NCBI RefSeq assembly: GCF_028617075.1
Contig: NZ_JAQKGV010000008.1
Location: forward strand, 62,001-126,000
From: Rubrobacter calidifluminis
Lineage (GTDB): Bacteria; Actinomycetota; Rubrobacteria; Rubrobacterales; Rubrobacteraceae
Direction of reading: 5' to 3'
DNA: 64,000 bases
Shown here: positions 28,775-34,206 of the stretch, piece by piece
Numbering within the stretch: the first letter of the stretch is position 1
Layout of the letters: each line of letters opens with the position of its first letter
The notes under the pieces: generated by a model
Seen by the model: only the letters and a program-made list of their open reading frames with translations
What the model was told of the DNA's origin: nothing
The model's database searches: none
Position numbers and translations under genes: made by a program

Positions 28775-30190
28775 GTGGCAGAGAGCTTCGACCTCGTGAT
28801 CATCGGTGGAGGAAACGCAGGCTACATACCCGCGATCCGGGCCAGCCAGCTAGGGATGAGCGTCGCGCTCGTCGAGAAGCGTGAGGGGGGACACCTCGGG
28901 GGCACCTGCCTGAACGTGGGGTGCATCCCGACCAAGGCCCTTCTCCAGACGGCTTCCATGCTGAGCGACTTCAAAAACGGCGAGGAGTTCGGGATAAAGG
29001 CCGGCAAGGTGGAGTTCGACTACCCGCAGGTGGCCAAGCGGCGCGATGCGGTGGTCAACCAGCTGCGGCGCGGGGTCGCCGGCCTGATGAAGAAGAACAA
29101 GGTCCGCGTCTACAACGGCGTCGGCAGCTTCGTCGAGCCGAAGAAGGTAAAGGTCGCTCTGAACGACGGCGGCGAGGAGGAGCTCGAGGGCAGGTTCGTC
29201 CTGATAGCCTCCGGATCCGAGGTCAACACGCTGCCCGGCCTCGAGATAGACCACGAGAAGGTCATCTCCAGCGACGACGTGGTGACAGAAAACGAGAGCG
29301 TACCCTCCTCGATCATCATCCTCGGCAGCGGGGCCGTGGGGGTGGAGTTCGCGAGCATGTTCAACGACTTCGGCGCCGAGGTGACGATAGTCGAGGTGCT
29401 CGAGAGGATCGTGCCGCTGGAGGACCCGGAGGTCTCCGCCCAGCTCCAGAAGGAGTTCGAGGGACGGGGCATCCGGGTGCTCGCCGGGACCAAGGCGGAC
29501 ATAGAGAGCCTGGACAAGAGCGGCGACGGGGTGAAGATAAAGGTCGAGGGCAGGGACGGCGAACAGACGCTCGAGGCTGAGAAACTCCTCGTCGCCGTCG
29601 GGCGCAAGACCGCGATCGAAGAGCTCAACCTCGACGCCACGAAGGTCGAGGTGAGCGACCGGGGCATCATCCAGGTCGACGAGTTCTACCGTACCGCCGA
29701 GGACGGCGTGTACGCTGCGGGGGACGTGATCGGGGGCTACTGGCTCGCGCACGCCGCCGGGCACGAAGGGATCGTCGCGGTGGAGCACATGGCCGGGGAG
29801 GATCCGATGCCGCTCGATCAGGACATGATCCCGCGGGTGACCTTCTGCCGTCCGGAGATAGCTTCCTTCGGCCTCACCCGCGAGCAGGCCGAGGAGCAGG
29901 GGTATGAGGTCAAGGAGGGTAAGTTCCCCTTCCGCGCGATCGGGAAGGCCCTCATCGAGGGCGAGCCCAACGGGTTTGTCAAGGTGGTCGCCGACGCTGA
30001 GACCGACCTGATCCTGGGAATGCACGCCATCGGGCCGCACGTGACCGAGCTGATCGCGGAGGGGGTCTTCGCCAAGCTGGTCGAGGGTACACCGCAGGAG
30101 ATCGGGATGGCCGTCCACGCCCACCCGACGCTCGCCGAGGTGATGAGTGAGGCCGCGCTCGCGGTCGACGGGCACGCGATCCACTTCTAG
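28775..30190 (+). CDS. lpdA: Dihydrolipoyl dehydrogenase
   Basis: A 471-residue flavoprotein, the E3 subunit of 2-oxoacid dehydrogenase complexes, which reoxidises dihydrolipoamide with NAD+. Features are Gly-Gly-Gly-Asn-Ala-Gly-Tyr (11-17), the redox motif Gly-Gly-Thr-Cys-Leu-Asn-Val-Gly-Cys (about 42-50), the NAD motif Gly-Ser-Gly-Ala-Val-Gly (about 188) and the active-site His in His-Ala-His-Pro-Thr. GTG 28775 abuts the Fpg stop. The E1 and E2 genes (49102, 51992) lie 20 kb away, so this E3 may serve several complexes. Confidence 0.94.
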   Translation: MAESFDLVIIGGGNAGYIPAIRASQLGMSVALVEKREGGHLGGTCLNVGCIPTKALLQTASMLSDFKNGEEFGIKAGKVEFDYPQVAKRRDAVVNQLRRGVAGLMKKNKVRVYNGVGSFVEPKKVKVALNDGGEEELEGRFVLIASGSEVNTLPGLEIDHEKVISSDDVVTENESVPSSIIILGSGAVGVEFASMFNDFGAEVTIVEVLERIVPLEDPEVSAQLQKEFEGRGIRVLAGTKADIESLDKSGDGVKIKVEGRDGEQTLEAEKLLVAVGRKTAIEELNLDATKVEVSDRGIIQVDEFYRTAEDGVYAAGDVIGGYWLAHAAGHEGIVAVEHMAGEDPMPLDQDMIPRVTFCRPEIASFGLTREQAEEQGYEVKEGKFPFRAIGKALIEGEPNGFVKVVADAETDLILGMHAIGPHVTELIAEGVFAKLVEGTPQEIGMAVHAHPTLAEVMSEAALAVDGHAIHF

Positions 30191-30845
30191 CGCCTGCTCC
30201 TTCGACCCGGCCCGCGACGGGTTCGGTTTCGCCAACCCGTCCGGGCCCTCCGGGGGCCGGCTGGAGTCTTTGCTGTACGGGCGGGGGCTGTGCTTCGGGA
30301 TGGCCGCCGCCTCGCTCGCGGCCTTCTGCGGCGTGGAGCGCCGGTGGCCGCGGCCGCTCTCCCGGCTCTCTCCGGACCCTGCTCTGATCGGGGAGCTCCG
30401 GCGCTACCACCTGCTGCAGTTCCGCCCGCGGACGATTTTGCGGGTGGTGTGGGAGTGGATGCGTGCGCGCGGCGGCCGTCCCGAGCGCGTGGCCGGGCGC
30501 ATCAGGGTCGCCGGGGACCCCGACCCGCACATCCTCTGTCTCGGCCCCCGGGCCGGGCGGGGTTTCTTCGAGCGGCTCGCGCTGGCACACGCCGTCGTGC
30601 CATACCGGCTGGAGGAGGTGGAGGAGAGGCTTTTCGTCTACGTCTACGATCCGGAGTTCCCGAAGGATCGGAAGAGGAAGATCGTCTTCCGGCGCGGGGG
30701 TGGGGAGGGATTCGGGCGCTTTCGCTACGGCCGGTTCGACAGCCGGGAGGGGTGGGGGATCGTACCCCTGCAGCTCTCGGCTGTTCTGTCGATGCCTGGG
30801 CGGGCTTCGGTGTGTGATCCGGTATCCACATTGGAAGAGACGTAG
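30147..30845 (+). CDS. Papain-like cysteine-peptidase-fold protein (start uncertain)
   Basis: A 232-residue frame. Residues 19-31 (Phe-Asp-Pro-Ala-Arg-Asp-Gly-Phe-Gly-Phe-Ala-Asn-Pro) and the Gly-Leu-Cys-Phe-Gly-Met-Ala motif (about 47-53) look like the opening and nucleophile loop of small papain-fold proteins. A later Val-Tyr-Asp-Pro-Glu-Phe-Pro segment (about 168) fits the strand after the catalytic His. The only start before that fold is GTG 30147, inside the last 44 bases of lpd and in a different frame, with no ribosome site. ATG 30300 lies after the Cys motif. The protein is probably real but its N-terminus is unsettled. Function unknown. Confidence 0.55.
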   Translation: MRPRSRSTGTRSTSSACSFDPARDGFGFANPSGPSGGRLESLLYGRGLCFGMAAASLAAFCGVERRWPRPLSRLSPDPALIGELRRYHLLQFRPRTILRVVWEWMRARGGRPERVAGRIRVAGDPDPHILCLGPRAGRGFFERLALAHAVVPYRLEEVEERLFVYVYDPEFPKDRKRKIVFRRGGGEGFGRFRYGRFDSREGWGIVPLQLSAVLSMPGRASVCDPVSTLEET

Positions 30846-30874
30846 CCTGAGCGCCTCGCGCCCGCGGCTCCTGC

Positions 30875-31678
30875 TCAGGGGAGCAGCGTCTTCATCTGGT
30901 GCTGGATCAGATGTGTGGAGAGTTTCGGAGCTGCACGGTTGAGGATGCCCATCGCCACCGAGTCTCTCCCCACGTAGATGTGAAGACGGTTCTTCTGGAT
31001 ACCGTCGAGGATCACCCGGGCTGCCTCCTCGGGCGTGGTGGTGGGCAGGCGAGAGCCCTGCGCGTTGCCCGAACCCGGAGCGTCGACGTCCGAATTGGAG
31101 GCAATATCGGTTTCCACGCCTCCTGGCATCACCACTGAGACCCCGACGTGAGTCTCGAGGAGCTCGGCGTACAGGCCCTCGGTCATCAGCTTCACCGCCG
31201 CCTTGGTGGCGCCGTAGATGGTCTGGCCGGGTACGGGCAGGAAACCCCCCATGCTCGAGACGGTGGCTAGGTGTGCTTCGGGACGATTGAGCAGGTACGG
31301 AAGGAATGCCTTGACTACGTGGATAGTGCCCCACAGGTTGACGCTCAGCACCCGTTCGATCGTCTCGTATTCTAGATCGTTGAGCCGAACGAATGGCTGG
31401 ATGATGCCGGCGACGTTGACGACCACGTCGGGCGGGCCGAGAGCTTCGGTCACCCGGGCCGGCAGGGCTTCGACGGCCGCCCGATCGGTGATGTCGACCA
31501 CGAAGGTGACGAGCCGGTCCCCGGCCGAGGCCAGGCGGACAGTCCCTTCAAGGCTTTCCCTCCTGATGTCCACCGCCGCCACACAACCCCCGCGCCGCAG
31601 TGCTTCCAGCACCACCTGGCGCCCGATCCCGTTTCCGCCGCCGGTCACGACCAGAACCTTGCCACGAACGTCCATCAT
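30875..31678 (-). CDS. Short-chain dehydrogenase/reductase of the regulated cassette
   Basis: A 267-residue classical SDR. It has Thr-Gly-Gly-Gly-Asn-Gly-Ile-Gly (about 12-19), Asn-Val-Ala-Gly (about 90), Ser-Ser at about 141, and Tyr-Gly-Ala-Thr-Lys (about 153-157). The Asp at the end of the second strand (Ala-Val-Asp-Ile-Arg) predicts NAD(H). ATG 31678 is preceded by GGAGGAGGC; ATG 31675 is the next codon. A perfect 12-base-arm palindrome lies 39-66 bases upstream. Third positions are less GC-rich than in the surrounding genome. It is downstream of, and co-oriented with, the TetR gene. Confidence 0.88.
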   Translation of the reverse strand: MMDVRGKVLVVTGGGNGIGRQVVLEALRRGGCVAAVDIRRESLEGTVRLASAGDRLVTFVVDITDRAAVEALPARVTEALGPPDVVVNVAGIIQPFVRLNDLEYETIERVLSVNLWGTIHVVKAFLPYLLNRPEAHLATVSSMGGFLPVPGQTIYGATKAAVKLMTEGLYAELLETHVGVSVVMPGGVETDIASNSDVDAPGSGNAQGSRLPTTTPEEAARVILDGIQKNRLHIYVGRDSVAMGILNRAAPKLSTHLIQHQMKTLLP

Positions 31679-31716
31679 GCCTCCTCCGGATCCCCCACTG
31701 CGATGCCATGTTACCA

Positions 31717-31744
31717 GATCACCGGACAACGCTGTCCGGTGATC
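31717..31744. promoter_or_regulatory. Operator 1: perfect palindrome upstream of the SDR
   Basis: GATCACCGGACA (31717-31728) and TGTCCGGTGATC (31733-31744) are a perfect 12-base inverted repeat with a 4-base spacer. The inner core ACCGGACA N4 TGTCCGGT is identical to that of the site at 32328-32347. It lies between the TetR stop and the SDR start. I infer the TetR protein binds it. Confidence 0.75.
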
Positions 31745-31759
31745 CGATCAATCCGTCGG

Positions 31760-32323
31760 CTACACCAGGCCCTTGCGGACCAGCGACCACGCCCGATCGG
31801 CCACCTGGCGTCTTTGCTCCAGCGGAGTTCGAGCGACGAGCGTGGCGATCATGGCCACGCTCAGGAAGAGATCTTCAGCGGTAGTGTCGGACGCGACCTC
31901 ACCACGCTCGATAGCGGGCTGGACCTTGGCCGCCAGCGCCTGGATGACCCGATCGGTGACCGCGGTCAGCCGTTCGTCATCGGTGGTCGGGGCGATCATG
32001 TCGATAAAGGCCACCGATTCGATGGACCGGTCCGTGATGCACTCCAGCAACTCCCCGAGTGTCACTGCCGGATCCGAGGCCAGGCGTTCCAGCTCGGCGA
32101 CGTTGTCTTCGAACGCTGCCAGCGCCAGTTCAATGCGGTCAGGGAAGTGCCGGTAGAGACTGCCCTGCCCCACCCCGGCAGCCTTTGCTACCGCGCTCAA
32201 CGGTGCCTCCAGACCCCCGGTTGCGAATACCCTTCGCGCAGCTTTTACCAGCGCTGAACGGTTCTCGGCCGCAGCACCCGGCCCCCGATTTCCCCTACGC
32301 TTCACCACGATGTATGGTAGCAT
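31760..32323 (-). CDS. TetR-family transcriptional regulator
   Basis: A 187-residue protein from ATG 32323, or 181 from GTG 32305. The N-terminal helix-turn-helix is clear: Leu-Ser-Ala-Val-Ala-Lys-Ala-Ala-Gly-Val-Gly-Gln-Gly-Ser-Leu-Tyr-Arg-His-Phe (about 40-58), the TetR recognition region. The C-terminal ligand domain is unassigned. Neither start has a ribosome site. A TACCAT box 6 bases upstream of the 32305 GTG pair makes a leaderless start possible. The operator at 32328 lies directly in front of the gene, so autoregulation is expected. Confidence 0.88.
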   Translation of the reverse strand: MLPYIVVKRRGNRGPGAAAENRSALVKAARRVFATGGLEAPLSAVAKAAGVGQGSLYRHFPDRIELALAAFEDNVAELERLASDPAVTLGELLECITDRSIESVAFIDMIAPTTDDERLTAVTDRVIQALAAKVQPAIERGEVASDTTAEDLFLSVAMIATLVARTPLEQRRQVADRAWSLVRKGLV

Positions 32324-32327
32324 GGCA

Positions 32328-32347
32328 ACCGGACACATCTGTCCGGT
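32328..32347. promoter_or_regulatory. Operator 2: palindrome between the TetR gene and the flavoenzyme
   Basis: ACCGGACA (32328-32335) and TGTCCGGT (32340-32347) with spacer CATC. On the plus strand it fills the 18-base gap between TGGCAA (32323-32328) and TATATG (32347-32352), a weak -35/-10 pair for the flavoenzyme. On the minus strand it begins 4 bases before the TetR ATG. It is thus placed to repress both. Confidence 0.75.
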
Positions 32348-32363
32348 ATATGGAGGAGTGTGG

Positions 32364-34049
32364 ATGGTGGGATCCTGGGACCGTGAGGTCGATGTGCTGG
32401 TGGTGGGAACCGGTGCGGCGGGGCTTTCTGCGGCCGTCACTGCGGCCGATGCCGGCCTTGAGACGCTGGTTATAGAAAGCACCGGCAAGTGGGGAGGGAC
32501 GACCAACCTCAGCGGTGGAGGTTTGTGGATGCCCGCCAATCCGCTGATGACGACCTTTGGGGTCTCCGATTCGGTGGATGAAGCGCTAACCTACATGGAA
32601 GCCTGCATCGGCGACGTCGGGCCTGCGAGTTCTCCGGAGCGGCGTCGGGCGTTCGTCGAGTCGGTGCCGGAGGTGTTCCGATTCCTTGAGCGGCTTGGTG
32701 TGAGATGGACCGCTGCCAGGGACTATCCCGACTACTACCCGGATCTGCCGGGCGCCAAGATCGGGCGCTCGATCGAAGTCGAGCCGTTCGACGTTCGCGT
32801 GCTTGGGGACTGGTTCGAACGTTCGCGCAGTCGGGAGAGTGGTCTTCCTCCCGTTCCCCTCAAGACCGACGATGTTTGGCTGTTGTCCCGAGCCTGGTCG
32901 ACCCGTGATGGCTTCGCCAGAGGGGTCAGGCTGGTAGGTCGCACGTTGAGTGGCTTTGCCAGGGGGAAGCGATTGTATGGGATGGGCGCCGGGTTGGTGG
33001 CCAGCCTTATGGCGATCGTTTGCAGACAGGGCACCGAGGTATTGCTCTCTTCGCCGCTGACTGAGCTCGTGGTGGAGAACGGTTCGGTAGTCGGTGCGGT
33101 GTCCCGCCGTTCCGACGGGTTCTCGGCCAGGATCCGCACCCGGCGGGGCGTGGTCCTCGCCGCAGGGGGCTTCGCTCACAATGAGATTATGCGCAAGGAG
33201 AACCACGGCATCCCCGGTTACAGCTCGGCGGCGGACGGAGACGTGGGATCGGTGATCCGGATCGCGGCCGGGCTGGGTGCCCAGCTGGCCCTGATGGACG
33301 ACGCCTGGTGGGGTTTGTCGGTGCCCGATCCCGGCGGCAAGCCGGCGTTCGTGCTCGCTGAGCGCTCCATGCCGTTCAGCATAATCGTGGACCAGAGAGG
33401 CGACCGGTACATGAACGAGTCTGCCAGCTACATTGACGTCGGGCACGCCATGCTGGAGCGCGACAAGGTGACGCCGGCCGTACCGTCGTGGCTCATCGTG
33501 GACGCCCGTCACCGGAGACGGTATCTGTTCAGTGCCTTTATGCGGGGCACCGCCAGGCTGCGGGAGGCAGGGATCGTCAAGAAGGCCGACACTATCGAAG
33601 ACCTGGCACGAAAGCTGCAGATGGATCCTGCACGGCTTCGGGCCACCGTCGATCGGTTCAACGGGTTCGCCCGCACGGGAGTCGATGTCGACTTCGGACG
33701 CGGCAACACCGCCTACGACAACTACTACGGCGATCCCACCGTCAAGCCGAATCCAAATCTCGGACCGCTGGAGAAGGCACCGTTCACCGCGGTTCAGCTG
33801 GTACCCGGAGATCTGGGAACCAAAGGCGGCTTACTGACCGACGCCGATGGCCGGGTCCTCGACACCTCGGGAAACGTTATCCCCGGCCTGTATGCGGCTG
33901 GAAACACCACCGCCTCGGTCATGGGGCGGACCTATCCCGGTCCGGGTTCGACGATCGCCCCGGCGGTGATCTTTGCCCACCGGGCGGCACGGCATCTCGC
34001 CGGCGGTGGGAGCTGGGCGGCGGGCACGCGAAGCGCGACCGGCGGATGA
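32364..34049 (+). CDS. FAD-dependent oxidoreductase, 3-ketosteroid 1-dehydrogenase-like
   Basis: A 561-residue flavoprotein of the fumarate-reductase/KstD group. The FAD motif Gly-Thr-Gly-Ala-Ala-Gly is at about 15-20, Gly-Gly-Thr-Thr at 44-47, and the C-terminal FAD segment Gly-Leu-Tyr-Ala-Ala-Gly-Asn-Thr, with Tyr-Pro-Gly-Pro-Gly-Ser-Thr-Ile, ends the fold as in KstD. KstD inserts a C1-C2 double bond in 3-ketosteroids. The substrate could equally be another cyclic ketone. ATG 32364 has GGAGGAG at 32352-32358. In the first 77 codons after the ATG, 23 end in A or T, against 6 of the first 77 in trxB, so the gene probably came by transfer. Confidence 0.83.
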
Positions 34050-34206
34050 ACTCGCCGCGATACTTCACCGGCGTCGGAGGTCGAGGACGGGCCGTACCCG
34101 TAAGTTGTTCGAGATCGGGGGTGCGTGTCCTTACGATGGGACATGGCGGCTGCGATGTTTCTTGCGGTACCATATGCTGGCAGGTCGAGGGAGACAGAGG
34201 AGAGCC

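Follow-up and report, generated by a model that had tools for sequence, protein, structure and literature searches.

The R. calidifluminis locus, in which a gene for a TetR-family regulator lies between those of a flavoenzyme and an SDR and is accompanied by two palindromes with a common core (Table 1), raises the question of whether these palindromes are operators of that very regulator, and of which genes and which ligand they would bring together. It is located in a stretch of 64,000 nucleotides of Rubrobacter calidifluminis DNA, hereafter the window. A first-pass annotation had proposed a small TetR regulon including both oxidoreductases, and this proposal is strongly supported here, as the operator tracks the TetR type and fronts orthologues of both enzymes. 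Our preferred reading, to which we give a probability of about 0.78, is that the regulator would be a local, self-regulating TetR repressor acting at the two sites (O1 and O2) and released by a ketosteroid-like or other polycyclic ligand.

Table 1. Features of the regulator locus (positions in the window)
Feature	Position	Strand	Description
TetR-family regulator P0003, 187 aa	31760-32323	-	TetR_N domain, conserved NRGPxAAxxNR arm, all-helical predicted fold
KstD-like FAD enzyme P0001, 561 aa	32364-34049	+	FAD_binding_2; best NCBIfam match is 3-ketosteroid-delta1-dehydrogenase, below cut-off
SDR P0002, 267 aa	30875-31678	-	Contains TGxxxGxG and YxxxK; in other genera, orthologues adjoin KstD
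O1 (operator 1)	31717-31744		Lies between TetR and SDR; perfect 12+4+12 inverted repeat with its core at 31721-31740
O2 (operator 2)	32328-32347		Core palindrome in the spacer that separates the divergent TetR and KstD genes
Horizontally acquired island, 3.4 kb	30780-34178		Contains SDR, TetR and KstD with both operators; sister genomes lack it

With regard to the regulator, its TetR_N domain (PF00440) scores 45.3 bits, above the cut-off of 24, and its AlphaFold model (pLDDT 89.7) retrieved TetR-family proteins as top PDB matches in a Foldseek search, which were of a general TetR kind and gave no hint of the ligand. The first-pass annotation had not recognised the motif as that of KstR, KstR2 or another steroid regulator, and this is indeed not a KstR/KstR2 system, since the protein reaches 30.5 bits against the KstR equivalog model, whose cut-off is 280, and the published KstR consensus operator TnnAACnnGTTnnA (PMC5348764) is unlike that of the window. 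The SDR gene follows TetR on its strand, with O1 between them, and the two motifs of the SDR read TGGGNGIG and YGATK. The flavoenzyme scores 631.6 bits against NF009478 (cut-off 789) and 549.9 bits against NF005882 (cut-off 788), and because both values lie below the NCBIfam KstD cut-offs, it is named only KstD-like. When aligned with Rhodococcus KstD1 (4c3x), it keeps all four catalytic positions, which we take to be Tyr119, Tyr318, Tyr487 and Gly491 in KstD1, within the motifs PDYY, NESxxY and YPGPG. It falls into a separate, fully supported clade (100/100), with 39-45% identity to the other actinobacterial KstDs in the tree. KshA was sought in the window's genome (G000, assembly 96% complete) with PF19298, which gave no match.

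O1 reads GATCACCGGACA ACGC TGTCCGGTGATC, with perfect 12-base arms around a 4-base spacer, and O2 reads ACCGGACA CATC TGTCCGGT; the core common to both, ACCGGACA-N4-TGTCCGGT, is perfect in each. The earlier description of O1 as a perfect 12-base inverted repeat and of O2 as a repetition of its 16 inner bases is borne out at the positions of Table 1, and the genes lie as had been claimed, with the TetR between the two sites and the SDR and KstD-like genes behind them. The centre of O1 is at -53 from the SDR start, a type of position also found in L071 (-55) and L016 (-25), while that of O2 precedes the ATG codons of TetR and KstD by 15 and 26 bp, respectively, a spacing shared by five other loci (L069, L079, L010, L047, L056). 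O2 overlaps the TetR start region and the KstD 5' leader/promoter region. It does front the KstD-like gene and adjoin TetR, but the additional claim that it fills the gap between the -35 and -10 boxes found no support in a consensus scan of 31640-32420, which revealed no sigma-70-type promoter.

Both sites are rare. With up to three mismatches to the core, the window contains O1 and O2 only, for 0.27 sites expected from shuffles, and they are also the only two perfect copies in the 3.09-Mb genome (54 contigs), for about 0.001 expected at the genome G+C. A core common elsewhere in the genome, which the first-pass annotation had named as the outcome that would speak against it, was thus not found. 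Beyond these two, the genome holds one site with two mismatches (C11:7413) and six with three, the reversed-pattern control giving four. C11:7413 was considered as a further regulon target and judged to be a chance match, the surrounding ORFs containing no recognisable oxidoreductases.

The same association was then sought in other actinobacteria. A TetR profile search, with one genome per species, gave 80 loci, each scanned from -700 to +1200 of the TetR start for the operator and for three control palindromes. The operator is present with at least 14 of 16 matches in 67 of the 80 loci and is perfect in 31, against 0 for the three controls at both thresholds, so that the core does occur beside TetR genes elsewhere, as the first-pass annotation had suggested checking. 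TetR relatives with only 39-60% identity, from other actinobacteria, carry this operator just upstream of their own start, those of distant Actinomycetota with 38-48% identity have the core beside them, and the outgroup TetRs (L006-L009 and L018) are without it. The clade extends over Streptosporangiaceae, Micromonosporaceae, Nocardiaceae, Microbacteriaceae, Pseudonocardiaceae, Streptomyces and others. Operator centres lie at -13 to -17 from most TetR starts (tblastn-anchored) and at -15 in the window, whose TetR hence shares the clade trait of an operator immediately upstream of its own gene. In a logo of 110 distinct sites, the CCGGAC half-site is near-invariant, with the outer A at 89%, the inner A at 78% and a weak C-A preference just outside; because of this, the four extra base pairs of each O1 arm are not counted in the general motif. 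When 12 genomes (88.9 Mb) were searched with at most one mismatch, 17 sites were obtained, 14 of them at TetR loci, for a single control hit. With between one and three sites in each genome at this threshold, the regulator is a local one. The three sites away from the TetR loci, which belong to G404 and G399, were rejected as candidates, no TetR, KstD or SDR homologue being located nearby. In the open-access papers searched, including those on SCO0520, no description of a regulator with the operator of the window was found.

The best evidence that the window's TetR type would own the operator is provided by an apparent regulator swap at KstD loci. A search of 351 Micromonosporaceae genomes with the KstD protein gave 30 loci, chosen without reference to operator or TetR. 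The operator of the window (type A) is found at all 14 KstD loci that have this TetR type and at none of the 16 others (Fisher's exact p = 6.9e-9 over the 30 loci, an optimistic value given the shared ancestry of the genomes). Thirteen of these 16 carry instead a divergent TetR of a different type, together with two tandem copies of TAGCCG-NN-CGGCTA between TetR and KstD (type B, TAGCCGATCGGCTA), and the remaining three have neither operator. The type-B TetR shows only weak similarity to that of the window, over the DNA-binding domain. In L177, a KstD locus without the operator, a weak match (35%) to the clade TetR lies further off. In the KstD tree, loci of the two regulator types are intermingled, and a supported, mostly type-B set (99/94) includes the window together with the type-A loci L069 and L079; the operator thus goes with the TetR rather than with the KstD. 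Judged from sequence, the operator belongs to this TetR type, fronts TetR, KstD and SDR genes, and is rare genome-wide.

The type-B arrangement deserves a description of its own. In Micromonosporaceae (L167-L178 and L180), the tandem sites, with the unrelated TetR, front close KstD orthologues, which they may control; the copy nearer to KstD is lengthened to a perfect 22-bp palindrome in L175 and L178. No described regulator was found for this second operator in the open-access literature. Two unrelated sets of TetR and operator in front of nearly the same KstD represent a clear natural example of regulator replacement.

The genes behind the type-A operator vary across the clade. Its centre is located at -18 to -59 from KstD starts (window -26) and at -25 or -55 from the starts of SDR orthologues (window -53), all tblastn-anchored. 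The two-operator design of the window recurs in an Actinomycetes MAG (L071), with one site between KstD and TetR and one before the SDR. Micromonospora pattaloongensis (L069/L165) is the nearest relative with the gene order of the window; O2 is present there and O1 is not detectable, a point against the preferred reading. An SDR orthologue adjoins KstD in L047, L056, L069, L071, L121, L165, L167, L169-L171, L188, L190, L191, L193 and L194. Counted by locus, and resting on simple gene calls made for this analysis, the targets are other SDRs (30, a loose cluster), KstD (11), a secreted protein without Pfam match (8) and, more rarely, P450 (5), GMC oxidase (3), SMP-30 proteins (3), BVMO (2) and ferredoxin reductase (2). 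On the TetR tree, at least seven changes of KstD linkage are needed, so targets have been exchanged.

Some of these other targets can be described further. In Rhodococcus and Nocardia (L084, L091, L053, L044, L057 and others), the operator precedes the gene of a secreted-looking protein of about 520-580 aa, for which the scanned representatives (L053 and L084) gave no Pfam match. SMP-30/gluconolactonase-like genes are found behind it in Streptomyces and others (L013, L014, L015 and L021), and in L021 it also lies before a BVMO-type FAD oxidoreductase. In Nonomuraea, a BVMO close to neopentalenolactone/pentalenolactone D synthase (756 bits; L074, 5172-7613) lies beside an operator-carrying TetR locus.

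As for the origin of the locus, in the sister genomes G027 and G028 (lipA 97% identical) the flanks of the island are 95-96% identical and contiguous but for about 53 bp, without the SDR-TetR-KstD block, which therefore represents a 3.4-kb gain in the lineage of the window. The empty arrangement is also found in two other genera, and the G+C content of the island is 64.4%, compared with 68.3% for the window. The other searched members of the Rubrobacter family have no TetR or KstD relative of comparable identity. The island edges bear no visible insertion sequence, integrase or target duplication. The ORF at 30147-30845, which adjoins lpd and has no Pfam or NCBIfam match, has a C-terminal end that differs from that in the sister genomes as a result of the island insertion.

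What we infer from these data concerns direct binding, the sign of regulation and the ligand. The TetR would bind the ACCGGACA-N4-TGTCCGGT palindrome as a dimer or a pair of dimers, repressing both divergent genes, its own and that of the KstD-like enzyme, from O2 and the SDR gene from O1. Repression would most likely be steric, with O2 just upstream of both start codons and O1 before the SDR. The TetR would then be released by a hydrophobic ligand on which both enzymes act, most likely a ketone or alcohol of 3-ketosteroid-like or other polycyclic (terpenoid) structure, and this release would induce Delta1-dehydrogenation and SDR oxidation or reduction of that compound. Release by a ligand is suggested by what is common in the family. 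A steroid is suggested by the KstD target and by analogy with the regulator SRTF1, whereas the P450, BVMO and SDR targets elsewhere in the clade point to a terpenoid, the two being compatible. Since other SDRs, P450s, Baeyer-Villiger monooxygenases, ferredoxin reductases, GMC oxidases and secreted proteins are among the targets, the ligand does not have to be a steroid. Full 9,10-seco steroid catabolism is disfavoured because the genome is without KshA, and biotransformation or detoxification would fit the enzyme pair better.

The main competitor retains the same repressor-operator pair, but sees the KstD-like enzyme as a general ketone desaturase and the ligand as a non-steroid cyclic ketone or a terpenoid, of the pentalenolactone-like or monoterpenoid kind. 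We consider this a serious contender, at somewhat less than even odds. It draws on a clade P450 target best matched to pentalenolactone synthase, on a BVMO target best matched to PtlE (756 bits, below the cut-off of 1100), on the SDRs and ferredoxin reductases among the targets, on the repeated emergence of KstD linkage on the TetR tree (at least seven changes forced) and on the missing KshA; it has to face the conservation of all four KstD1 catalytic residues in the window target and the place of KstD among the commonest targets (11 loci). Much less is to be said for an inverted sign, with the TetR as an activator or the ligand as a co-repressor shutting the enzymes off. Some TetR proteins activate, and the position of an operator alone leaves the sign unfixed, but a site no more than 26 bp from the KstD start and about 15 bp from the TetR start lies where transcription is normally blocked. 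Moreover, SRTF1 lets go of DNA with its ligand (PMC7062782), and we regard this inversion as unlikely.

Two further explanations would deny the regulator its operator altogether. Ownership of the palindrome by a different, genome-wide or housekeeping regulator, next to which the TetR would lie by coincidence, is very improbable, given that the operator goes with the TetR type and gives way to another one where the TetR is replaced, that it is absent from the TetR-less sister genomes, and that it is rare genome-wide. It is scarcely credible that the palindromes arose by chance or act as RNA hairpins or terminators: although GC-rich inverted repeats can form hairpins and O1 lies between tandem genes, no terminator-like site was found, the sequence itself is conserved across distant genomes beyond what pairing would demand, and only 0.001 perfect copies were expected.

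The repressor released by a ketosteroid-like or other polycyclic ligand thus remains our preferred reading. On a wider scale, we can tentatively propose, while leaning slightly against it, an actinobacterial family of local sensors of steroid/terpenoid-type polycyclic ketones, which would share one 20-bp operator code and spread among oxidoreductase genes through horizontal transfer and the exchange of regulators; the copy in the window would supply a KshA-less genome with an inducible pair of steroid-modifying enzymes. For this TetR clade, the regulator-operator code allows targets (KstD, SDR, P450, BVMO) to be listed from sequence alone; should the ligands prove to be steroids or terpenoid ketones, small-molecule biosensors comparable to SRTF1 could be drawn from the clade.

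Repression of adjacent oxidoreductase genes by a TetR protein is already known. By sequence and fold, SCO0520 (2q24) and MAB_4384 (5ovy) are among the closest solved TetR structures, with 21-32% identity in fold alignments, and the flavoenzyme shares its family and catalytic residues with KstD1 of Rhodococcus erythropolis (4c3x) and AcmB (7p18). KstR and KstR2 are likewise TetR repressors, of actinobacterial steroid catabolism, but KstR controls a large regulon, whereas the window TetR would control only adjacent genes. The closest known analogue, by gene layout and published description, is SRTF1 (KR76_27130) of Pimelobacter/Nocardioides simplex, a progesterone-responsive TetR encoded divergently from a ketosteroid dehydrogenase. 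Its 22-bp palindrome directly precedes the dehydrogenase gene, a few genes in the vicinity have additional sites, and the protein is released from DNA by its ligand (PMC7062782; PMC7807495). SRTF1 belongs to a steroid island with a 3-ketosteroid 9-alpha-hydroxylase, unlike the window TetR, whose genome is without KshA; both are divergent from a ketosteroid-dehydrogenase or ketosteroid-dehydrogenase-like gene and have a palindrome directly upstream of it.
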